From the IMG/VR virus record IMGVR_UViG_3300030333_004057, positions 1 through 28,836 of that record: 28,836 bases of DNA; one strand, given 5' to 3'. Shown in pieces: positions 599 to 28,192 of the stretch. The translations under genes were made by a program, and so were the position numbers. This DNA comes from a virus. Every line of letters starts with the position of its first letter. Within the stretch, counting starts at the first letter, position 1. The notes below the pieces were generated by a model, which worked only from the letters and a program-made list of their open reading frames with translations, made no database searches and was not told the origin of the DNA.

Positions 599-1924
599 CT
601 ATTCCCAAAACTCTTTTGCTTTTTGTTTTGTTTCATATTCCTTCTCCGTTGGTTTTAATCTTTTCTTTGCTATCTCTATATATTCTGGATTTAATTCAAT
701 ACCTATCCAATTCTTATCCATTTTCATAGCCACTTCACCCGTTGTTCCGCTACCCATAAATGGATCAAGAACTATACCAGGTTCAAATTCATCATTACTT
801 CTACCATCATTATAACCTTTATCATTATATATAGCATATCTCTGACCCTGTTCATATTTACCATCATATCTTTCAGGTCTATAATTAGGATTATCTTCCG
901 GTAATTCATGTCTCTCTAATGATTTCTTTTCCATTATTCTTTCTCTAGGTTTACCAGTTTTCTTATCAATATATTCAGGACAACTCGCATCTATCGGAGT
1001 CTCAATAAGTTTGGGTGGATATACTGCAAAGTGAGCATCTTTAAATCCTTTTGGATTAATATTCCAAACAGTCCTTTTATTTCTACCATTTGGATTTGCC
1101 CATCTATCACCCATTCTATCTGTTTTTTCTGGACTACTTCTACCATCAACTACAGTACCATCCCAACCATATTGAGCTCTCTTTAAACTAAGCTCTTTTA
1201 CTGGTTCAAGTTGTTGTTTGAAATAATATTTTTTATTTTTTGTAAAGAAAAAGAATTTTTCAAAATCTACAGTAAATCTATCCGTAGCAGGTGAAGGCAT
1301 ACAACTTGATTTATGCCAAATTATTTCATTTCTTAATATCCAACCTCTGTTAGTCATCTCAATTGCAAACCTACTTGGTATTTGAACTAAACATTTTTGA
1401 GGTAAATCACAAGTAACTTTGGGTGTCATAGCACCTGGATTATTTTTATTCTGCATATTACCAGTTCCTTTACCATGACCACTATTAGCATAGGTATCAC
1501 CTAAATTGACCCAACAACTTCCGTGAGGTCTTAAAACTCTTTTCACTTCATCAAATATATCACACAAGTGACTAACAAACATATCTGGATTAGGTTCTAA
1601 TCCTAACTCACCTTTCCAAGCACCACATTTACTACAAAAAGCATCTTCAACTTCCCAATCTACTTTATTAGCATTTAAATGATGTGGTAATCCCTTATCT
1701 GAATTTGTTCCACTATGTAATTTTCTTTTTGATATTGTAAAATCATGTTCACAATTTGGGTCACCACCCCATATCTGTCCTTCTGTATTATAGTCACGGA
1801 GTCCCCAATACGGCGGGGATGTAATACACATATCCAAGGATTCATCTGGAAATGTTTTTAATACACTTAATGCACTACCTTGATATATTTTATTTAGTTC
1901 TAAACTTTTCCCATTGTTTTTCAT
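599..1924 (-). CDS. DNA methyltransferase, beta-type N4-cytosine/N6-adenine family, with putative zinc-binding insertion
   Basis: A 441-aa SAM-dependent DNA methyltransferase. The catalytic motif IV, TSPPYW (residues 35-40), comes before the SAM-binding motif I, DPFMGSGTT, near residue 387. This is the beta-class order. SPPY with a following W is typical of N4-cytosine enzymes, but the target base cannot be settled from motifs. An insertion after motif IV carries Cys58, His60, Cys97 and Cys100, a possible zinc site. Start at ATG 1924 with AAGGGTGA upstream. The 5' end overlaps the upstream methyltransferase gene by 35 bases, so the two are probably co-transcribed. No cognate nuclease is certain, but the gene two places upstream is a candidate. 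Confidence 0.9.
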   Translation of the reverse strand: MKNNGKSLELNKIYQGSALSVLKTFPDESLDMCITSPPYWGLRDYNTEGQIWGGDPNCEHDFTISKRKLHSGTNSDKGLPHHLNANKVDWEVEDAFCSKCGAWKGELGLEPNPDMFVSHLCDIFDEVKRVLRPHGSCWVNLGDTYANSGHGKGTGNMQNKNNPGAMTPKVTCDLPQKCLVQIPSRFAIEMTNRGWILRNEIIWHKSSCMPSPATDRFTVDFEKFFFFTKNKKYYFKQQLEPVKELSLKRAQYGWDGTVVDGRSSPEKTDRMGDRWANPNGRNKRTVWNINPKGFKDAHFAVYPPKLIETPIDASCPEYIDKKTGKPRERIMEKKSLERHELPEDNPNYRPERYDGKYEQGQRYAIYNDKGYNDGRSNDEFEPGIVLDPFMGSGTTGEVAMKMDKNWIGIELNPEYIEIAKKRLKPTEKEYETKQKAKEFWE

Positions 1925-2723
1925 TTTCTATCACCCTTAATTTTTTTTGTTTTCTCTCTTGGTAAGGTTTACCTTTAATCTTATGTAATTTAATTTCTTC
2001 ATCTAAAATATTTTTTTCACTTTCATAGTTTCTAATTCTTTTGTTAGCCATATCTATGTATTCATCTGATATATCTATTCCTATATAATCACACCCCAAT
2101 AATTTAGAAGCTACAGCTGTTGTTCCACTTCCAATATATGGATCTATAACCGTTCCTTTGTTTTCATCAAATAAAGAAAGTATAATTCTTAATGGTAAAA
2201 CTAAAGGAAATGGTGCTGGATGAGGGTTTTTCATTTCAGGTTGAAAACTCCATATAGATGAAAATTGAGCGTGTTTGGATTTTAATTCCTTACCCACTCT
2301 ATCATCTTCAGTAGGTTTATATAACCAATATATTCTTTCATCTATCTGCCAAAATCTCCAACCTCTCAATTGCCCACTTATAAATCTATCCCATATAATT
2401 TCTTGTTTAGGCATCCAATCAGTTCTTGTCAACCATTCCATTGGATGTATCAATTCACCATCATCCCATCTACATCTATGATTATAAAAAAATGAACCAC
2501 CTGGTTTTATAACTCTATATAATTCATTTAATACTTCAATCTGTTGTTCCTGATATACCTCTTCTGGTAAGTTATCATCAAACTTATCATAAACAACGGA
2601 CTTGACTATAGGTCCTCCCTTTTTACCTTTATTATATGGAGGAGATGTAATACCTAAATCTATAGAATCAGATTCTAATGTTTTTAATACATCTAATACA
2701 TCACCTTTTAATATTTCATTCAT
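1890..2723 (-). CDS. DNA methyltransferase, beta-type N4/N6 family
   Basis: A 277-aa SAM-dependent DNA methyltransferase. TSPPYN (residues 26-31) is motif IV, and DPYIGSGTT (about 194-202) is motif I, followed by GCDYIGIDISDEYIDMA. The order is again beta class. The C-terminal about 50 residues are charged and lysine-rich and may contact DNA. Its ATG at 2723 directly follows the TAA of the upstream gene, with no strong Shine-Dalgarno, suggesting translational coupling. It differs clearly from the neighbouring 441-aa enzyme (no zinc-like insertion), so the two probably modify different sites. The base specificity cannot be read from the sequence. Confidence 0.88.
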   Translation of the reverse strand: MNEILKGDVLDVLKTLESDSIDLGITSPPYNKGKKGGPIVKSVVYDKFDDNLPEEVYQEQQIEVLNELYRVIKPGGSFFYNHRCRWDDGELIHPMEWLTRTDWMPKQEIIWDRFISGQLRGWRFWQIDERIYWLYKPTEDDRVGKELKSKHAQFSSIWSFQPEMKNPHPAPFPLVLPLRIILSLFDENKGTVIDPYIGSGTTAVASKLLGCDYIGIDISDEYIDMANKRIRNYESEKNILDEEIKLHKIKGKPYQERKQKKLRVIENEKQWEKFRTK

Positions 2724-7164: not shown

Positions 7165-7959
7165 TTAACTATTGAACAGTTCGTCAAAAGCATCTTCTAC
7201 TTTTTCTTTTTTGTCAGTATTTTCTGTAGTAGTTCCAGTATTTGTAGTTGGAGCTGTACTAGCAGTAACACCATTAGAAGTTGTAGTAGTTTCAGTACTA
7301 TCATCATCACTTGGATTTAGATAATTCTGAAGAGCTTCTTTTAAGTCATCATAAGTTGGTTCATCCCAAAGTTCTTCCAATTTAGTTTGACTATCAAATA
7401 TTGTTTTAAGAGTCTCTTTGTTTTCGGTGATAGCGGTTTGATTAGGTTTAACTCTTATAGTAGTTTTACCATATTGATTTCCCGCTTCAGCTGGAGTTTG
7501 TCTTTCAACAACAATATCTCTACCAGTTGTAGGATCTGTAATGTCACCATAATCAGGGTCAGCAATTACACCAAGAAGTTCTTGATATACTGTCTTACCG
7601 AATCCCCACCATTTAACACCTTCATGTTCTTGACCTCTTACTACCACAGGAGCAAAAGTTCTCAATCTTGGTTCAATTCTACGACCTTGTAACCAATCTT
7701 CTTTGTTACCACTAGACTTTAATTTTCTTGAAAATTCTTCTACTGGATCTGGTTTACCAAATGAAGTTGGTGATAAGTAAGTTTTATTATTACCAAGACC
7801 ATAATGAAAAAACAATTCCACGAATGGATTATCTTTATTATGTTTGTAAGGTACTATTCTAACTTGAGTTTTACCTGGTTGAGGTTTCCAAAAACTATCC
7901 TTGGTGGATGTTGTTGTTTGAAGTTGACTTAATCTATCTTTTATTTTTGAAATATCCAT
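7165..7959 (-). CDS. Single-stranded DNA-binding protein, T4 gp32-like
   Basis: A 264-aa ssDNA-binding protein that would coat ssDNA at forks and recombination intermediates. It shows the gp32 architecture. A basic N-terminus (about 1-20) would support cooperative binding. The OB-fold core contains KTQVRIVPYKHN, FFHYGLG, RLRTFAPVVVRG and WWGFGKTVYQELL. A Ser/Thr/Asn-rich linker spans about 215-245. The acidic C-terminal tail is EDAFDELFNS, the type that recruits partner proteins in T4. The zinc site of T4 gp32 is not apparent, as in many marine relatives. ATG 7959 has AGGAG upstream. The leader carries its own promoter, a hairpin and five heptamers overlapping the ribosome site, suggesting autogenous control. 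Confidence 0.88.
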   Translation of the reverse strand: MDISKIKDRLSQLQTTTSTKDSFWKPQPGKTQVRIVPYKHNKDNPFVELFFHYGLGNNKTYLSPTSFGKPDPVEEFSRKLKSSGNKEDWLQGRRIEPRLRTFAPVVVRGQEHEGVKWWGFGKTVYQELLGVIADPDYGDITDPTTGRDIVVERQTPAEAGNQYGKTTIRVKPNQTAITENKETLKTIFDSQTKLEELWDEPTYDDLKEALQNYLNPSDDDSTETTTTSNGVTASTAPTTNTGTTTENTDKKEKVEDAFDELFNS

Positions 7960-7969
7960 TGATATTCTC

Positions 7970-8004
7970 CTATTTATTATTTATTATTTACTATTTACTA
8001 TTTA
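7970..8004 (-). repeat. Five tandem TAAATAR heptamers overlapping the SSB ribosome-binding site
   Basis: On the minus strand the five units are TAAATAG, TAAATAG, TAAATAA, TAAATAA and TAAATAG, head to tail without gaps. The last merges with GGAG, the Shine-Dalgarno of the SSB gene. It is unstructured A/U-rich RNA with a period of 7 nt, close to the reported site size of T4 gp32 per monomer. This is a likely autogenous translational operator. Confidence 0.7.
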
Positions 8005-8021
8005 TGGTTTATATAAAACCA
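8005..8021 (-). promoter_or_regulatory. Hairpin in the SSB mRNA leader
   Basis: TGGTTT (8021-8016 on the minus strand) and AAACCA (8010-8005) form a perfect 6-bp stem around a 5-base loop. The outer TAT/ATA can extend it with a bulge. It lies directly 5' of the five heptamers, the position where T4 gene 32 mRNA has its pseudoknot. I see a hairpin only and cannot show a pseudoknot. Confidence 0.5.
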
Positions 8022-8043
8022 CATAACCTATTTTCTTTTTACT

Positions 8044-8080
8044 CTATAATATATATAATTTTATACTATAAAGTCAAGCT
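8044..8080 (-). promoter_or_regulatory. Promoter of the SSB-uvsX-exonuclease-helicase unit
   Basis: AAGCTTGACTT is followed after 18 bases by TATATTATAG on the minus strand. It begins right after the stop codon of the upstream 169-aa gene. This is one of five near-identical copies. It would give an SSB leader of about 75-80 bases. Confidence 0.75.
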
Positions 8081-14229: not shown

Positions 14230-17200
14230 TTAAAAACTACTGTTTACTTTATTTGTAACAACATATGGAAAGTGATCAGCTTCGTCCGAATCAACATTTT
14301 TATAATAACCTCTATAATTAGGGTCACCTTCTACACATCCATATTCAGAAGTACATGCTTTTGATTGACAATTTGATCCCATACCACCATATCCATTATC
14401 ATATTCAGCATTACAAGATTGATTATGACTATATACACCTTTTGATGATTTTCTTGTTCCCAATGATGCTGTACTTGATTCACAATTAAAATCAGATGTA
14501 TAAGTGTAACCATGATAACTACAAGGACCATCTGCATTCATTGAAGGCCATTCTGGTACTGGAGCAGTCCAATCAAAATTTCCAGAACCTTTTCCATGTT
14601 TAGTAAATTTATAGTCTTTGTCAGAATATGCAGCTGCGTATCTACTTTCAAAGTCAGTACCACCATCCCAAAACTCACATTGTTTTTCAATAGTACCACC
14701 AGCCCAAGAAGTATTTAAAGCTTGTAATTGATCATCAGAACAATCACCTTGTTTATAATTACCGTCTGCATCACTACAGAAATTATGTACAGGATTTTGT
14801 TTTCCCATTTCATAGATATACCAATTATCTGCAATTTCAAAACAACCCCAAGGTAACATCCAATATGTACCACTAGATTGTGCATGATAACATCTATGAT
14901 CAATCATGTATTTAGTTTCTCCACCTTCTTGGTAAGTCCAATGTGGACAATCTAATATGTTACCTTTTTTAGCTTCCATTTCTTGAGGTAAAATACAACC
15001 TTCACCCTCTGGATATCCTCCCATTACATCTGAATCATCAGAAGCCCATTCCGTATCAAATGAAGTTATATCTGGTCTATATGACCATCCGTTTGGATGT
15101 GTTGGATTCCATCTACAAGGTTTACCTTTATTTTCAGGATCAGAATCTATCGGTAAAACTTGAGGAATACATGCACCACCACCAGCCCAATAAGCAGTAT
15201 TTCCAGAATCACTAACTACCTGACAATAACTATATCCAGCTACACGATAATTTGACCTTGTACTTCCTTTAGTATGCATATCATCCCAGAAATAAGCAAA
15301 CATATCATCTGTACTATCATATGCAAAATTCTGATGGTCTTCAATACCTAACATTTCAAGTGCTTCATCTGGATCTAATCTTGATTCATAAGTATGTCCA
15401 GGATAACCACCCGATCTCCCAGCTCCGGCACAACTTTGTTGTAAAGCACCCCAAGAATTAGCATTACCAGTTAACATACAAGTCATACACTCTGGTTTAA
15501 CAGACCAATAATGCCACCCTAAAGTTGGATGTTCTGCATAAAATACATCTTTACATTTATGTGGATTTATATGACATTTATTATGTCTCTCATGACCTTT
15601 TAAATACATCTCTTTTTTATATTCAGGAACATCTGTATCTACACCACCGTTATCAAGATAAGGCCATCCATTATCAGTATCAGGTGTGTTCCATCTTCCA
15701 AGTACATTTCCATGAAAACCTGTAGTTTTTTGTGCCAAATCAGCAACCCACCACCAACATAAACCTTGAGTTCCTTGTAATCCTTTAACAGACCAATATG
15801 GAGTCATTTCATGCCAAGCCAATCCACTCCAAGCTAATGATTTTTCCATATATACACTGTATGGTTCATTCAATTGAAGTCCGTCATCATCTCCATCTTG
15901 AATTGTTGTCATTCCCTCTTGAAATGCAAATCTAGCACCATCATCAAAACCTTCACACTCTTGAGCATCACTTAAATTCCAACCACCTTGACCTGACATA
16001 GAACATATTTCTGAACAATATTGAGCAGAATAATAAGTTGGTCTATCTTGATAAATACCTCCACCTTTTTGTAAAGCATATGAATCATTAGGTCCATCGT
16101 TTTCATCATTATAAAAACCACCAAAATTTTCATCAGTATCTGCAAAGTTTGGATAGTTACACCCACCAAATACATCTGTATCCATAACTTCTAACAAACA
16201 AGTTTGACCATGATGTGGATTGGCGTTTTCAACATTTTGATAATCTGAATTTGCATGAATATAATGATAACATTCAGTATTACCATATCCAAGACACCCA
16301 CCCCAATTCATCGCCTGCCAGTCAGGACACCTCCAATAAGCACAACATGAAAAATTAAAACTTGCTAATTCTGGATTATCGGTATAATAATGTTCTTCCA
16401 TATTATCAGTTTTTACAAAGTTGTTACTTTGCATACAATCACTTTGAGCACCTTCTTGGTACATAAAAGATTCATAATCAAGGCATCCCCAAGATCTTTG
16501 ATCTTCACAATATCCTCCATAGAAACCCATATCTGCCCAATATTCTTCAGGAACACCTTCTAAAGTTTGAGGAAACCATTTACAATTTTCACTAGCTGCT
16601 TCACAATCTTGTTTACTTTGTTGGTCACCACATTTTTCATCCAAATCTACTTGAAAATACTGTTCAACTGTATCAACTGGAGATTCTCCATTATCAGAAT
16701 CAACATCTTCATTAGCATCATGTATATCACTTTGATCTACTATAAATTCAACATTACCTTTATCTGAAGTCACCTTACCTTGTTCATCTAACTGATAAAT
16801 ACCAAGTTCTTGTTCCATTTTTTTAGTTTCATTAGGAAACCATGTCCACCAAGGAAAATCTGGATCCTTATTAGCGGCTACAATTTGGTCAGTAGTATAT
16901 CCCAAATCACTTAAAGCCTTTGGATTCCATCTTAAAACTGGTTTGAATGATTCAGTATTACCAAATACCTTATCACTCCTATACATCATCCATCCAGTAA
17001 ATGTAGTAGTCCATTGATCAGCAGTATAAGTATGATTAACTGTTTCTACTATAAAAATAACTTTATTACTATATACTTGAGGTAAATAATCTACTCTAAA
17101 AACATTTCCAGGATACATTCCAGCTATACCGTAAATACTCATTGAAATAGAATATGGTAATTGCATACCAGCATCTGAAGTTTCAACCTCTCCAACTTTT

Positions 17201-19800
17201 TCATTAACTAATTTTTTGTAGTAATAATCTGATATACTACTTACCAATACGGCTCTCTCACCCGCACCTAATTGCATTGTATCAACAGCTTCAGCTGCTG
17301 TAGTACTAACTTTACCACCAGCTTTAGTATATGTATCTACTACTCTAGTTACAGTAGAATCATATTCCTCATCCACTTTATCTATCCAATTAGTTATATC
17401 GGATTCATCAAAATATTTACCTATATTTTTAATAAAAGTTTTTTTAACATTTTCATTGTCACCTATACCATCATCATCAGGTTTAGTTAACGCAGTATAC
17501 TGATCACCTAACATAGAATCATTTAAAGAATCAGCAAAATCAACATCAGTAGATGGTAACCATTCAAAATAATGATTTCCAGTAAATTTATTATCTAAAT
17601 CACCTTGATCATTTTCACTATCCATTTGATGTAAATCTTTTAAACCTAATGCCATAAATATACCTTGACTTCCAGGATAAATAGGACTACCTACACTTGT
17701 AGCATTTATAGCAATCATACTACTTAATACATTACTAGGCATTTCCAAAGATAAATCCATATTTTTAGTCAAAGTATTTGGAGAATAAGGATTAAAAACA
17801 AATAAATCATCAAAATTATATCCACTTTTATGAGCATCTGTAGTTTCTTTTGATAATCCTGCTTCTACATCTTCCGCTGAAACTAGAATAGCACCTCCAC
17901 CATCATCATCACCATCATTAATTATATAATAATATTGACCATTAGTATTAAATTTTATTTCTTCACCAGTCTCTGCATATCCATATTGACCAGGTGTTGT
18001 ATTTGCGTTTGCTTCTTTTTCAGATTTAGTTAAATTAACAATTGGACTATTCAAATCTACAACTGCCATCTTATTATCACCTTGAGATATTAATTTTAAT
18101 TTGAATACATTAGCACCATTAGTATTAATATCAGTCAATAAACCTGTTATAGCACTGAATATATTGTCAGCTGTACTGAAATGAGTTACTATAGATTCTA
18201 AACTAACAAACATTTCATGTATTGGAATTTTTCCTGCAGCTTTTAATCCATCTGGATCATGTGTTGGATATAAAAATGGTATCGGTGCATTATTATTTCT
18301 AAATCCACGAGTCCAAACTTGTCTCCAATATAAATTTTCATGAAACTGCATTACTTGATTACTTGAATCAAACTTTATTTCTTTATCCATGTCTTCAGTA
18401 AATTTCATACCCAAATATTTATTTAATAATTCTTCCTCAAAAAATTTCCAAGTAACATAAGTTAAATTCCACAAAGAATCAGGAGCCGCATCTTGATCAG
18501 AATGATCATCTAAAAATGCAAAATATACACCGACATCACGTGCAATTGGTGGAATAACTGGATATCTAAAAGCTTTTTCATAAGCACTTTGATCTTCACC
18601 ATCCTCACTTTTTATAATTTGTTCTCTTAATGCCGCCCTTGTTTTTACTTCTACCCATTTGTTAGGTTCACATCCAAGTCTTTCAGCAGCTTCTGGATCA
18701 GAAGGACAATTAAATCCACCATCATCAAGAACTTTCTGGTGGCCTTTTAGTTTAGTTAAATCATAAAAAGTTCCAAGATGTACACTTTCAGTGTTACCTA
18801 ATTTATCTAGTACTAATTTAAAAAATGGATTTGTGTCTTGACTTTCTCCACTATTTCTAAAAAGAAAATCTAAATCAAAAACACCTTCCATATCATCCAT
18901 ACCAAAAAAAGCAAAAAATCTTTCAACTATAACTTGAGTTACATCTTTTGTAAAAAGATTACTAGAATTTCTATCATATTCCAATAAAGATTTATTACCA
19001 GAAGTTATAGTAATAGAACATTCAAATGAACCATCTGGTAAAGATTTAGAATTCCAATCTGTTACATATCCTTCAGCTACCCATAAATCACCACCAGATT
19101 TAGTTATCTTTCCGGTATCAATATTAAAAATATCATTGTGCATTTTATGATAATGTTGATCAGCAGTTTCTACATTTTCAGTTCCAACTGTAAAATATTG
19201 TGATTGATCGTAAGCATTTGCTGTATCCCATCCCATATCAACAAATACTCTAGCTCCTGGATGTAAAAAGAATTTTGTAACTATATTACTATAATCAAAA
19301 AAGTTATAGACTTTAAAATCTACTATAGTTTCTACATAAACACCATAATCACCTTGAGTGGAAGATTGAACACCAGTTATTCCAGCAGAAGCTTTATTAA
19401 ACTCATTCCAAGTATTCATACTATCAGGAACTACCTTATCAAGAGCAGTAGCAGTATCTTTACTATAACCATGTAAGTTATAATCATCATAAATATGATT
19501 ACCTATTTCATATAAAGCAACTTTACTTTGATCGTAACTTTTTTTGTTCTCTAATGTAGTTTCATCTTTATCAACCGAGTAAGATCTTACAACAGTCCAC
19601 ATTCTAGCCCATGGTTTCCTAGATGATAAATCTAAATTACTTCCAGGAGGTACTGCTATATTAGAATTATAATTTGTAAATTGAACTGATTCACCTTCAG
19701 CTGCACGAGCATCAGAACCAGATTGTCTTGATTTCAAGGTTTCTTTTACTGGACCGAATATATCCGATCCAAAGGCTCTATCACTTATTAAATTAGCCAT
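14230..19800 (-). CDS. Baseplate hub-like virion protein with long Cys/Trp-rich C-terminal extension
   Basis: An 1856-aa structural protein. Its N-terminal about 1000 residues look like a contractile-tail hub (gp27/gpD type). FFDYSNIVTKFFLHPGARVFVDMGWDT lies near residue 165. Near residues 895-935 there is MYPGNVFRVDYLPQVY, then VIFIVETVNHTYTADQWTT, the typical closing strand pattern of such hubs. From about 1055 to the end the character changes to very Cys-, Trp-, Tyr-, Gly- and Asp-rich sequence, for example WGCLDYESFMYQEGAQSDC and GGCNYPNFADTDENFGG. These resemble GC.D..A.NY repeats of surface proteins. The extension may be a disulfide- or metal-stabilised receptor-binding or piercing part. 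It follows the LysM gene, an order like P2 X-D. Start ATG 19800 with AAGGAAAG upstream. Confidence 0.75.
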   Translation of the reverse strand: MANLISDRAFGSDIFGPVKETLKSRQSGSDARAAEGESVQFTNYNSNIAVPPGSNLDLSSRKPWARMWTVVRSYSVDKDETTLENKKSYDQSKVALYEIGNHIYDDYNLHGYSKDTATALDKVVPDSMNTWNEFNKASAGITGVQSSTQGDYGVYVETIVDFKVYNFFDYSNIVTKFFLHPGARVFVDMGWDTANAYDQSQYFTVGTENVETADQHYHKMHNDIFNIDTGKITKSGGDLWVAEGYVTDWNSKSLPDGSFECSITITSGNKSLLEYDRNSSNLFTKDVTQVIVERFFAFFGMDDMEGVFDLDFLFRNSGESQDTNPFFKLVLDKLGNTESVHLGTFYDLTKLKGHQKVLDDGGFNCPSDPEAAERLGCEPNKWVEVKTRAALREQIIKSEDGEDQSAYEKAFRYPVIPPIARDVGVYFAFLDDHSDQDAAPDSLWNLTYVTWKFFEEELLNKYLGMKFTEDMDKEIKFDSSNQVMQFHENLYWRQVWTRGFRNNNAPIPFLYPTHDPDGLKAAGKIPIHEMFVSLESIVTHFSTADNIFSAITGLLTDINTNGANVFKLKLISQGDNKMAVVDLNSPIVNLTKSEKEANANTTPGQYGYAETGEEIKFNTNGQYYYIINDGDDDGGGAILVSAEDVEAGLSKETTDAHKSGYNFDDLFVFNPYSPNTLTKNMDLSLEMPSNVLSSMIAINATSVGSPIYPGSQGIFMALGLKDLHQMDSENDQGDLDNKFTGNHYFEWLPSTDVDFADSLNDSMLGDQYTALTKPDDDGIGDNENVKKTFIKNIGKYFDESDITNWIDKVDEEYDSTVTRVVDTYTKAGGKVSTTAAEAVDTMQLGAGERAVLVSSISDYYYKKLVNEKVGEVETSDAGMQLPYSISMSIYGIAGMYPGNVFRVDYLPQVYSNKVIFIVETVNHTYTADQWTTTFTGWMMYRSDKVFGNTESFKPVLRWNPKALSDLGYTTDQIVAANKDPDFPWWTWFPNETKKMEQELGIYQLDEQGKVTSDKGNVEFIVDQSDIHDANEDVDSDNGESPVDTVEQYFQVDLDEKCGDQQSKQDCEAASENCKWFPQTLEGVPEEYWADMGFYGGYCEDQRSWGCLDYESFMYQEGAQSDCMQSNNFVKTDNMEEHYYTDNPELASFNFSCCAYWRCPDWQAMNWGGCLGYGNTECYHYIHANSDYQNVENANPHHGQTCLLEVMDTDVFGGCNYPNFADTDENFGGFYNDENDGPNDSYALQKGGGIYQDRPTYYSAQYCSEICSMSGQGGWNLSDAQECEGFDDGARFAFQEGMTTIQDGDDDGLQLNEPYSVYMEKSLAWSGLAWHEMTPYWSVKGLQGTQGLCWWWVADLAQKTTGFHGNVLGRWNTPDTDNGWPYLDNGGVDTDVPEYKKEMYLKGHERHNKCHINPHKCKDVFYAEHPTLGWHYWSVKPECMTCMLTGNANSWGALQQSCAGAGRSGGYPGHTYESRLDPDEALEMLGIEDHQNFAYDSTDDMFAYFWDDMHTKGSTRSNYRVAGYSYCQVVSDSGNTAYWAGGGACIPQVLPIDSDPENKGKPCRWNPTHPNGWSYRPDITSFDTEWASDDSDVMGGYPEGEGCILPQEMEAKKGNILDCPHWTYQEGGETKYMIDHRCYHAQSSGTYWMLPWGCFEIADNWYIYEMGKQNPVHNFCSDADGNYKQGDCSDDQLQALNTSWAGGTIEKQCEFWDGGTDFESRYAAAYSDKDYKFTKHGKGSGNFDWTAPVPEWPSMNADGPCSYHGYTYTSDFNCESSTASLGTRKSSKGVYSHNQSCNAEYDNGYGGMGSNCQSKACTSEYGCVEGDPNYRGYYKNVDSDEADHFPYVVTNKVNSSF

Positions 19801-23000: not shown

Positions 23001-24527
23001 TTGAGATATCAACGGATAGTCTTCAGCACCACCAGCAATTGGAGTATTTTGTGGAGTTAAAAGTTCATCTAAATCAGAACCTGAAAATAAATTTGGAGCA
23101 TTATAGAATTTAACTAATTTTTGACCACTAGATCCCAAAGGTCCAGAAGCTCCCAAATTATTTAAAACTGTTCTTTGATGATCTCTAAAATCATACCAAT
23201 AATCATTATATAGTTTATCTAAAATTCCATCACCATCACTATCAGCTACAAAAGGAGCTGTACCACCACCACTGAAAATAGACTCACCATCTTGAGATAA
23301 ATATGGAGTCCAATGATTTAAATTATTTTCTTCTAAATTATCTAATGCAGAACCAAAATAAAAATTTCTATTAGGTAATGAAAAATCAGTATAAGTTGGT
23401 ACACCCAATCTTGGAGTTCTTGGATCATATTTATAGTTTTCATATGCAGCTACTGGTTCATTGGGATTACTATTGTCAATCATATCAAAAGTTCTATAAG
23501 GTAATAAGTTATCTAATGAACTATCAACACCACCAGTAATTAATAAACTTCCGTTTTTATCTGTAAATAAAGACGTAAAACCAACCACTGCCGGATTAAC
23601 ATTTTCCCAATAAGAATTTATACCTTGAAAAAAATCAACTTCTTGAGTAACATTATTTTCTTCAGTTGATAATGTACCTATATTATCTAAATGATTTAAT
23701 GGTCTACCACTAACAGGATTACTTGGTACTAAATTAGATTGTACATCTAAATAATTTGTCTGTACATCTTTACTATACATTGTATCTTCATATTTATTTA
23801 ATGGATTATAAGTAGATTGTTTATCAGGTAAATCTAATGTACTTGAATCCTCAACATATTGAGTTGGTATACCCTCATCAAAATTTTTAGTAAATCCTTT
23901 AGCATTATTATTAGAAAAAAAATCTACTTCTCTAATATCATCATTACCCAACGGAGAATAATCTTTTAAAGAAGATAATTTTTCAGTTGAAAATGGTTTA
24001 AAATCTTTACCTGTATTTTCAAGTTTTGGTGTATCATCATACCCATTAACAATAGGAACAGATTTTTCTTCAGTTGGTAACATATTATTTATTTCAATAT
24101 CACTATTTAATTTACTAGAATTATCAAAAACATTAACATCTTTTCCTATTTTCAAAGGAGTATCAGCTAATGGTGAAGTATCAGTTCCAATTTTTTTAGG
24201 TGTTGATGATAAAGGATTTACATCAGTTCCAATTTTTATAGGTGTTTCAGACAACCCTTTCATATCAGTTCCAATTTTTTTAGGTGTTGATGATAAAGGA
24301 TTTACATCAGTTCCAATTTTTATAGGTGTTTCAGATAATTTATTTACGTCCACACCTTTTTTCATTTGTGTAGACATTGTTTTATTAACTTCTTGAGGTT
24401 TTTTTTCAATTGTAGGCAGAGATCTTTTAACTTCAGGTACTTTATAGTCTGATATTTGTTTAAAAGGTTTTTTCTTTCCAACACCTTCGTTAAATCTACT
24501 TTTATTTCCAAAATTATCTTTTGGCAC
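20091..24527 (-). CDS. Large tail/baseplate virion protein with N-terminal 14-aa repeats and C-terminal tail-type domain
   Basis: A 1478-aa protein starting at GTG 24527 with AGGGAG seven bases upstream. Residues about 55-130 hold six 14-residue repeats of the type IGTDVNPLSSTPKK, probably flexible or extended. Near residue 430, DSDGDGILD is a calcium-binding loop of the thrombospondin-3/dockerin type. The middle is Gly/Asn/Pro-rich and unassigned. Residues about 1235-1400 contain RGYINNMVENLTGRWGE, then GRSEPVFSYEMGTRDITFTLR and YKKLNQLTSLVYPRY. I associate this block with baseplate proteins of contractile-tailed phages. The tail end is acidic with NG and EPEEG runs. It sits between tape measure and LysM genes. 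Exact role is inferred. Confidence 0.72.
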   Translation of the reverse strand: MPKDNFGNKSRFNEGVGKKKPFKQISDYKVPEVKRSLPTIEKKPQEVNKTMSTQMKKGVDVNKLSETPIKIGTDVNPLSSTPKKIGTDMKGLSETPIKIGTDVNPLSSTPKKIGTDTSPLADTPLKIGKDVNVFDNSSKLNSDIEINNMLPTEEKSVPIVNGYDDTPKLENTGKDFKPFSTEKLSSLKDYSPLGNDDIREVDFFSNNNAKGFTKNFDEGIPTQYVEDSSTLDLPDKQSTYNPLNKYEDTMYSKDVQTNYLDVQSNLVPSNPVSGRPLNHLDNIGTLSTEENNVTQEVDFFQGINSYWENVNPAVVGFTSLFTDKNGSLLITGGVDSSLDNLLPYRTFDMIDNSNPNEPVAAYENYKYDPRTPRLGVPTYTDFSLPNRNFYFGSALDNLEENNLNHWTPYLSQDGESIFSGGGTAPFVADSDGDGILDKLYNDYWYDFRDHQRTVLNNLGASGPLGSSGQKLVKFYNAPNLFSGSDLDELLTPQNTPIAGGAEDYPLISQYVGQISGAPYFNPDDYSIWDNGTSMGTGLESQGDPFKKYDQQYFDPRPQDRIIFGHDPPFWHPQNIYKGTIFDDPLREGVDGGGNFNADVDGERYSDTFRIINKPNIEEIAQDGNQGFGHIAAQTAIDLYKSYFGVFEGDNNTNTQGYIGEGTSLPITGETPLGNGSVQIDKASWYYSLWTTPNATTVTNEEIMTPHNTGQHGGDSNSFNTRTISVDGSQLTGKRLGFDDLIFGTLFDTIGGYPIGNVDNRLDIEYTTLGGPRGQEPYVKTNVPDNFNDSRVDDYLFGTTGYTPDGYSPSRADRASIDKDRLAEFFRTNKGKNFLTAQKLNFRKNPRSMNMWIGEDDVQRVMESGAEGKLDTYRPVSRGAFGALAEMDVYTGTVFESLFRPFGIQVNIAGLNLSTPTGMYGDIVDAALLITNTLHAEGRLDDEGSTIPFIGGAAFQVLNWNRNGLTIKTNVAPTTLEELLDQNVSNLLQLGIGLMLGKGYLQTDAGGMSEFSNPRALSYMQKGVSPFGFKQPWFFGLGGNTDVMNSYNFSSWKRLGSRIVDGGGETFKNRENNTLDKVFYDNVQEINDVTGFEGVMHTEKKGVVLPTYNQIYENRHSSADLFFGKDIDKYETRRLKGLGDNASFAIRNMDVHTFKKLGTEDNSLTSGNSDPVVTMGAGNWLGNNNKKQDVGTMTGKVHNNSAVTLTSPLIGSLGLKDAGSLEIEGEGELPVYFKDLRDNGYIILRGYINNMVENLTGRWGEDAYIGRSEPVFSYEMGTRDITFTLRLAAQTKLEFRMIYKKLNQLTSLVYPRYKTDNTNFGQINSGGKLRAQPPLVRMRIGELFGNSLGELPGFIRSINNIYSDQSPWETQKGLRAPKFIDCTISFQVIHAQVPGLDTNFYGLNNDYIGGDGRKINSANWSGGNLTSDVNIFNGGIPPETNVDEEEQPDEANEEPNGNGNGNGEPEEGENGQGQDNGDE
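20143..20166 (-). repeat. Hexanucleotide repeat encoding Asn-Gly units
   Basis: Four copies of CCATTA on the plus strand encode alternating Gly-Asn residues in the acidic C-terminal tail of the 1478-aa protein. This is a slippage-prone low-complexity tract. Confidence 0.7.
24140..24362 (-). repeat. 42-bp coding repeats, with an exact 73-bp duplication
   Basis: Six successive 14-codon units. The 73 bases at 24179-24251 are repeated exactly at 24263-24335, an offset of 84 bases, or two units. Units alternate between SETPIK and SSTPKK endings, so the unit of recent expansion was two repeats long. Confidence 0.85.
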
Positions 24528-26995: not shown

Positions 26996-28192
26996 TTATT
27001 TTCTCCTGTTACGTTTAGCCTGATTAAAGTTTCTAGTTCCACCTGAAACTCTTCCACCTCTTCTATGTGAAACTCTTCCACCTCTTCTATGTACCATAGA
27101 TGAAACTGGTCTGTTTCTTGTTTTCTCTGCATGAGGACCACCACCACAAGATTGATTTTGACATTTACATGTATTTGTGTTGGAACACCATTTACAACCC
27201 CAACCTTGATTTGCAGAAGTTATACACATTGAATAATTAGCCCCGATACAATCAAACTCTTGACCTTGTATTGTATATCCACAACAAGGATCTAATTGAC
27301 AATCAGTTGATCCACCACCACCATCATCTGATCCACCATCACATGGACCACAATTTTGGCCAAAGACACTATAACAATAGCCATCCTGACCATCAATTGG
27401 ACAACCATTATACCCCGAACAATCACATTCCCAAGGAACTAAATCAAATTCACATTCACAATTACTATTACAAAAATGAGTATTAGGACATATAGATGGA
27501 TCTTCACAACAAGTTGTTGGTGGTTGGTAATTATCAGAATCACATTCCCAATCTTGCCATTGGCAATTACATCCTATTGTCTGGTAACAACTACCTTGAG
27601 TTTGTTGTTCTGAACATGTTCCTACTACTTGACCCAGTATGTTATAACACATTTGATTTGGATCCTCACCTGGTTGAGAACAACATTGATACTCATCTAC
27701 TGGATTATATTCACAAACACAATTACTATTACAAAACATATCATTAGGACACATATTAGGATCATCACAACATGTTGGATCAGGATTGCCGTAGTCCCAG
27801 TAACAAGTTGATCCAATGCATTGGTGACATTGACCTTCAGAACTTATATTAGAACAAGGGCCTAAATTCTGACCTAATATATTATAGCAATTACCATTAC
27901 CTAAACATTGACCGTTTCTCGAACCACCACCTCTAGTACCACCTGCAGAACCATTATTAATTGGACGTTTTCTTTCTCTATATACACAATATTGTTCTTC
28001 CATTCCTAATGGGACACAATGTGGATGATTTGCAAGTGGTAAATGTGAAGCTCTTTTCACATAATTGGATCCAAGAGCCCAACTGCAGTATCCATATCCA
28101 TTTGGACATGGTTCATTTAATCCTCCACCTCCAGTATTTCCACCTGATGATGTTCTTGTTCTTTGTTGTTTTCCCTGATTATAATTTGGCAT
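26996..28192 (-). CDS. Cysteine-rich repeat protein in the tail module
   Basis: A 398-aa protein of unrecognised family. Two full repeats of about 75-85 residues are visible. Each starts CYNILGQ, runs through Cys/Trp pairs (TCYWDY, NCQWQD) to CCDDPNMCPNDMFC or CCEDPSICPNTHFC, and ends NSNCVCEY or NSNCECEF. A third, partial copy starts CYSVFGQNCGPC. A Gly/Ser-rich spacer and a last Cys cluster follow. The C-terminus is basic, with a doubled HRRGGRVS. There is no signal peptide, so disulfides would form only outside the cell; metal binding is an alternative. ATG 28192 has AGGAG seven bases upstream. Its place directly before the tape measure suggests a virion or tail-assembly role, which is inference. 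Confidence 0.72.
   Translation of the reverse strand: MPNYNQGKQQRTRTSSGGNTGGGGLNEPCPNGYGYCSWALGSNYVKRASHLPLANHPHCVPLGMEEQYCVYRERKRPINNGSAGGTRGGGSRNGQCLGNGNCYNILGQNLGPCSNISSEGQCHQCIGSTCYWDYGNPDPTCCDDPNMCPNDMFCNSNCVCEYNPVDEYQCCSQPGEDPNQMCYNILGQVVGTCSEQQTQGSCYQTIGCNCQWQDWECDSDNYQPPTTCCEDPSICPNTHFCNSNCECEFDLVPWECDCSGYNGCPIDGQDGYCYSVFGQNCGPCDGGSDDGGGGSTDCQLDPCCGYTIQGQEFDCIGANYSMCITSANQGWGCKWCSNTNTCKCQNQSCGGGPHAEKTRNRPVSSMVHRRGGRVSHRRGGRVSGGTRNFNQAKRNRRK
27044..27091 (-). repeat. Perfect 24-bp tandem duplication
   Basis: Positions 27044-27067 and 27068-27091 are identical. They lie near the end of the cysteine-rich gene and encode a doubled eight-residue basic unit, HRRGGRVS. Confidence 0.9.

Follow-up and report, generated by a model that had tools for sequence, protein, structure and literature searches.

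What a leader made of a hairpin and a run of near-identical 7-nt repeats does ahead of a single-stranded DNA-binding protein (SSB) gene is the question raised by this locus, which lies in a window of 28,836 nt (the whole stretch of DNA analyzed, itself part of a 37.7-kb viral record from a marine phage). The gene behind the leader (7165–7959, minus strand; 264 aa), presumed to be both the repressor and the regulated gene, encodes a gp32-family SSB. Its open reading frame matches Pfam PF08804 (E = 1e-14) and PHROG 1192 and 224 ('single strand DNA binding protein'), and 1gpc, the solved core of T4 gp32, was matched at E = 4.5e-4 using an SSB family profile; by all of these, homology to the gp32 core is present in the sequence. 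Where T4 gp32 carries its zinc-binding His/Cys set, the aligned positions of the window SSB have no cysteines, and its membership in the wider gp32 family therefore follows from the Pfam and PHROG models and not from zinc binding. The AlphaFold2 model of the protein is of low confidence (pLDDT 44), and a fold search on it is meaningless as evidence for or against an OB-type fold. Reading along the minus strand, two short genes come first, then the leader, the gp32-type SSB, a RecA/UvsX-type recombinase, a 5′–3′ exonuclease and a DnaB-type helicase. Downstream of these replication genes, two N6/N4-type DNA methyltransferase genes lie side by side with a slight overlap (599–1924 and 1890–2723, minus strand). 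Elsewhere in the window, an 84-bp unit built of 42-bp units occurs almost twice with a 100% match inside a large ORF (24179–24335), and a 24-bp sequence is present in two identical copies at 27044–27092.

Read directly on the minus strand, the leader consists of AAATAGGTTA, TGTGGTTT, TATAT and AAACCATA, followed by five heptads, GAGAATATCA and ATG. The heptads run from 8004 down to 7970 as TAAATAG, TAAATAG, TAAATAA, TAAATAA and TAAATAG, and are followed by GAG, AATATCA and the start codon at 7959–7957; the Shine–Dalgarno sequence AGGAG (7967–7971, minus strand) takes its first AG from the last heptad. The original prediction had described just this, five gapless TAAATAR copies of which the last runs into the Shine–Dalgarno, and Tandem Repeats Finder agrees with the direct reading (period 7, 5.0 copies, 92% match). 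Immediately 5′ of the array is the hairpin TGTGGTTT-TATAT-AAACCATA (8003–8023, minus strand), seen in RNA folds; it had been correctly located at 8005–8021 and extends to 8 pairs (8023–8016 with 8010–8003). The extension carries its 3′ arm into the first heptad, such that hairpin and array overlap by one heptad start. The hairpin's 5′ flank is a GGUUAU (8023–8028, minus strand) that is conserved in alignment columns and forms the 5′ arm itself in some relatives.

Farther upstream, a consensus scan placed a sigma-70-like promoter, TTGACT-18-TATATT (10/12 matches), at 8048–8077 on the minus strand. Sigma-70-like sites are no more numerous in the leader region than in shuffles, and hexamers similar to those of the window are visible in most relatives. 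With the mRNA 5′ end placed by this promoter-like site, the element would occupy the interval between the 5′ end and the SSB start codon, overlapping the ribosome-binding site. The leader region folds at −11.4 kcal/mol, compared to −7.0 ± 2.2 for shuffles (z = −2.0). The arrangement of hairpin and heptads is real and far beyond chance: the leader holds six URA triplets at exact 7-nt spacing, one of them within the hairpin 3′ arm, and no such run arose when the leader was shuffled 20,000 times with its dinucleotides preserved. No described Rfam family was matched at the leader, and matches in the region were far below gathering scores.

To place the array in a comparative setting, two scans of viral contigs, one with the window SSB and one with a divergent homologue, returned about 158 loci, many contigs being common to both; these loci, together with ten more from a pattern scan, provided 90 distinct leaders. 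Nearly all of the 90 share the layout GGUUAY, hairpin, URAANNN units, Shine–Dalgarno and ATG, and thus retain the combination of hairpin and repeats whose absence from close relatives would have counted against the original prediction. In the first 60 distinct leaders, identity at lag 7 between hairpin and Shine–Dalgarno was 0.774 compared to 0.469 ± 0.010 after shuffling; lag 14 gave 0.716, and no other lag stood out in this way. Of the 90 leaders, 78 contain four or more URA units exactly 7 nt apart, a state reached by 0.1% of dinucleotide shuffles. The same periodicity emerges from a MAFFT alignment of 42 diverse leaders that was built blind to the repeat: its invariant columns (T30 A32, T37 A39 A40, T44 A46 A47, T51 A53) follow a strict period of 7, U being present in 42/42 leaders at positions 30, 37, 44 and 51, and the columns G6 G7 T8 T9 A10 T11, corresponding to GGUUAU, are conserved in at least 90% of them. 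Averaged over pairs, the UAAA columns show 97% identity but the three spacer columns 56%, close to the 52% at four-fold degenerate codon sites of the same SSB genes (saturation expectation, 42%), whose proteins are on average 74% and at minimum 61% identical. These identities indicate that UAAA and its spacing are held by selection while the spacers drift at a near-neutral rate.

The 7-mers themselves vary while the frame is kept, as in CTAAAAA (L043), CATAAAA (L096), ACTGAAT/ACTAAAT (L100) and ATAAACA (L109), and in 13 of the 90 leaders the Shine–Dalgarno is itself the next in-register unit, UAAGGAG or UGAGGAG. The register is broken in some leaders, for example L098, L122 and L146. A 57%-identical SSB in a contig from a Saprospiraceae metagenome-assembled genome (L454) is preceded by a GTTAC/GTAAC hairpin and four units with a U every 7 nt; at 3.3 kb, this contig is too little to name a host.

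The hairpin is retained among the leaders through compensatory changes and with stems that differ. When the window structure was imposed on the leaders, 87.7% of cells paired, compared to at most 46.5% with the 3′ side slid, and the covariation score of 0.170 exceeded that of shuffles (0.066; 0/500). Divergent groups carry other stems at the same place (GTTATATT/AATATAAC, TTATCG/CGATAA, GTTATAC/GTATAAT and TTACA/TGTAA), with short loops of about 3 to 7 nt that differ among relatives. Stems of at least 6 pairs are found in 88 of the 90 leaders, although stem length alone is weak evidence, since shuffled AT-rich leaders yield 57 on average; the argument for the hairpin as a selected feature instead rests on covariation and position. 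RNAalifold returned no consensus structure from the MAFFT alignment, probably because the stems of divergent leaders were misaligned, and pairs of a named structure were therefore counted. Inspection of the relatives' hairpins by eye revealed no consistent second stem that would make a pseudoknot. Separately, RNA folding weakly indicates a small hairpin, GAATATC-AATG-GATATTT, at 7950–7967 (minus strand) with the start codon in its loop. Both of its sides are changed in L096 (AAUGUC/GACAUU). As a general feature this start-codon hairpin was rejected, since only some relatives have it and permuted leader/CDS pairs come close to the same level.

Whether the element marks SSB genes in particular was evaluated at several levels of stringency. 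Across 15 whole contigs totaling about 0.7 Mb, a covariance model derived from the leader alignment gave one match below E = 1e-5 per contig, in 15/15 cases the SSB leader, the next best match having E = 0.002; several SSB leaders were in the training set, and the informative part is therefore the lack of second matches. Chain scoring of 292 mechanically called ORFs with a Shine–Dalgarno and ATG, drawn from the window and five relatives, placed SSB leaders in the top three positions, whereas 277 of the 291 scored ORFs received 0 or 1. The heptad pattern by itself is not specific to SSB. With the looser pattern WTAAAYR ×3, 28 of 158 sites precede the window-type SSB family among the matches listed, and the majority of ATAAAYR arrays in viral contigs lie outside SSB leaders, many being AT-rich and unrelated to SSB; bare heptad arrays elsewhere are AT-rich simple repeats, some of them ahead of the start codons of other genes. 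In G007, a sliding-clamp-like gene has three in-register UAAA units before its Shine–Dalgarno (17192–17254; L417). A wider regulon including the clamp was considered and rejected in favor of chance, as the readable leaders of related clamps are without heptads.

A complete, protein-blind scan of viral contigs for (TRAANNN)4TAAGGAG, that is, (URAANNN)4-UAAGGAG in the RNA, returned almost only two kinds of gene, the 30 contigs comprising 17 with window-type SSB, 10 with PHROG 2402 and 3 others. Genes of PHROG 2402 (PF23977, Pam3_Gp34-like; L456:6448–7227, L220:3665–4444, L282:3047–3823 and L225:7049–7825 (minus)) stand directly before those for primase, helicase and DNA polymerase. Their leader has a UUUGAW-GGAA-WUCAAA hairpin inside the end of the upstream gene, followed in some members by URAANNN units and UAAGGAG; at least four units occur in 29% of 56 leaders compared to 0.25% of shuffles. 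The model of this protein has a pLDDT of 51, and its top PDB matches include OB and Whirly proteins that bind single-stranded DNA, none of them significant (E = 0.05). It is possible that PHROG 2402 is an unrecognized SSB with a convergent operator, which we offer as a lead rather than a result. Among gp32 proteins proper, a separate T4-type group with zinc ligands (L369, L370, L372) includes some leaders with 3–4 in-register units. Heptads of the type ATAAACG were seen in some members of the zinc group (L224, L369, L370, L372), and L375 has a 6-nt ACAAAA repeat.

Taken as a whole, we interpret hairpin and (URAANNN)n array as a putative translational operator of the T4 kind in a new 7-nt format, by which the SSB would switch off its own production, and we place the probability of this reading at roughly 0.7 on the comparative evidence. 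We infer that the SSB itself binds the leader and represses, its monomers keeping a register of one per heptad. The hairpin would mark the 5′ edge of the operator and probably position or nucleate the first SSB, from which further monomers would line up cooperatively along the unstructured (URAANNN)n lattice, probably one to each heptad, contacting UAA(A) by preference. The row would extend over the Shine–Dalgarno and block the ribosome. While abundant single-stranded phage DNA draws SSB away, the mRNA would be translated; once SSB is in excess, its own synthesis would be shut off. If each URAANNN unit seated one monomer, the strictness of the spacing, the freedom of the spacers and the in-register Shine–Dalgarno would all be accounted for. 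The strongest form of the proposal, in which each unit seats exactly one monomer, the Shine–Dalgarno provides the final seat and the layout arose by convergence in unrelated phage SSBs, seems to us doubtful, although worth stating given that the protein-blind scan yielded almost exclusively window-type SSB and PHROG 2402.

The array could also act on translation without any repression by SSB, as an unstructured A/U-rich loading or standby region for ribosomes (a translational enhancer serving, for instance, ribosomal protein S1) that supports high SSB expression while the hairpin shields the mRNA 5′ end. SSB is needed in large amounts, and the array, A/U-rich and open in folds, is located directly before the Shine–Dalgarno. 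However, a loading region would not require UAAA to recur at exactly 7 nt between 3-nt spacers that evolve neutrally, and the pattern is rare before other genes in the same phages; we regard this explanation as unlikely, although it retains some weight. Less credible still is an operator that is real but read by another RNA-binding protein, be it a RegA-like repressor of the phage or a factor of the host, for example Hfq. RB69 RegA is reported to select UAA triplets in vitro, yet repressors of the RegA type have many target mRNAs, and in the examined contigs the element occurs at SSB alone. RegA (PF01818) had 0 matches in 15 contigs, an absence that weighs little because the control was silent and the contigs are fragments.

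A reading at the level of DNA, with a repressor of double-stranded DNA or a replication initiator bound to the repeats or the dyad, draws on the hairpin being a DNA palindrome and on tandem repeats being typical of iterons. Several features of the leaders speak against it and favor action in RNA: a period of 7 bp does not correspond to a helical repeat, loop length in the hairpin ranges over 3–7 nt, and the distance from the −10-like box to GGTTAY ranges from 5 to 21 nt across leaders. Moreover, in L047 and L032 a tRNA-Met gene (L047:2852–2926; L032:2393–2468) ends directly before the element, such that the usual promoter is gone while hairpin and heptads remain, which suggests that the mRNA 5′ end in these two cases is produced by processing of the tRNA. 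As the element also ends at the Shine–Dalgarno, we consider a DNA operator or iteron very improbable. A functionless AT-rich microsatellite born by slippage deserves almost no credence: similar ATAAAYR arrays do occur in other AT-rich viral contigs, but here degenerate units hold the frame while their spacers evolve near neutrally, several different 7-mers share that frame, and the hairpin covaries, so that the comparative data already contradict it.

The leaders display, in dozens of natural variants, which letters are kept by selection (UAAA every 7 nt) and which are ignored (the 3-nt spacers). In-register reading of RNA by an SSB would thereby become approachable through spacer length, and the signature may serve to find such operators, and possibly unrecognized SSBs, in uncultured phages. 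No earlier description of a 7-nt version was found in the open-access full texts that were searched.

Comparison with known systems locates the proposal more precisely. T4 gp32 represses its own mRNA: it nucleates on a fold at the 5′ end and from there spreads across UUAAA/UAAA repeats and the ribosome-binding site, although how a sequence-indifferent SSB recognizes its own mRNA has been called unclear even there (PMC535899). The operators of gene 32 in T4 and RB69 resemble the window leader in belonging to a gp32-family SSB gene, in having a folded element at the leader 5′ end, and in the open A/U-rich stretch with UAAA-type repeats that lies 3′ of the fold and overlaps the ribosome-binding site. 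They differ in that the T4 fold is a pseudoknot of about 28 nt, where the window leader shows a simple hairpin; the T4 repeats, as read from its leader, are 5-nt UUAAA, few and irregular, rather than the strict 7-nt (URAANNN)n of the window clade; the Shine–Dalgarno is an in-register unit in some relatives of the window SSB; and zinc-binding cysteines are present in T4 gp32 and absent from the window SSB. Repression has been shown for T4 and RB69, whereas the window operator is proposed from sequence comparison. The predicted analogy to T4 stands for architecture and placement. RB49 has been reported to be without the element, and study of more phages called for (PMC3014915).

The predicted match between repeat period and gp32 site size fared less well as a rule. 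T4 gp32 does cover 7 nt per monomer (PMC7826291), as had been claimed, with one analysis inferring a site reduced to nearer 5 nt when filaments are crowded (PMC10484735). However, the T4 period is 5, the heptad array is absent from Mel-JY01, immuto, Goe26 and other distant relatives, and no period of 7 was detected among 71 distinct cyanophage gp32 leaders, in which no common hairpin was seen. Equality of period and site size is therefore not a general gp32 rule, and the 7-nt format belongs to one clade with partial parallels; the original interpretation remains plausible and draws its comparative support from the conservation of hairpin and heptads, the selection on them and their specificity to SSB in the examined contigs. 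The cyanophage leaders (Kyanoviridae type) are likewise short, A-rich, placed before the gp32 gene and marked by recurring AAUCC/AAUAC words, but their lag-7 identity equals the shuffled value, with excesses at lags 5, 9, 10 and 15. In the last 60 nt before the gp32 start codon of L289–L368, the AAUCC/AAUAC repeats possibly constitute a repeat format of their own. A further likeness is to TRAP and the trp leader, where a series of repeated protein units reads short RNA words set at regular intervals. The TRAP protein forms a closed ring and reads NAG triplets, whereas the SSB proposed here would form an open row ending at the Shine–Dalgarno.
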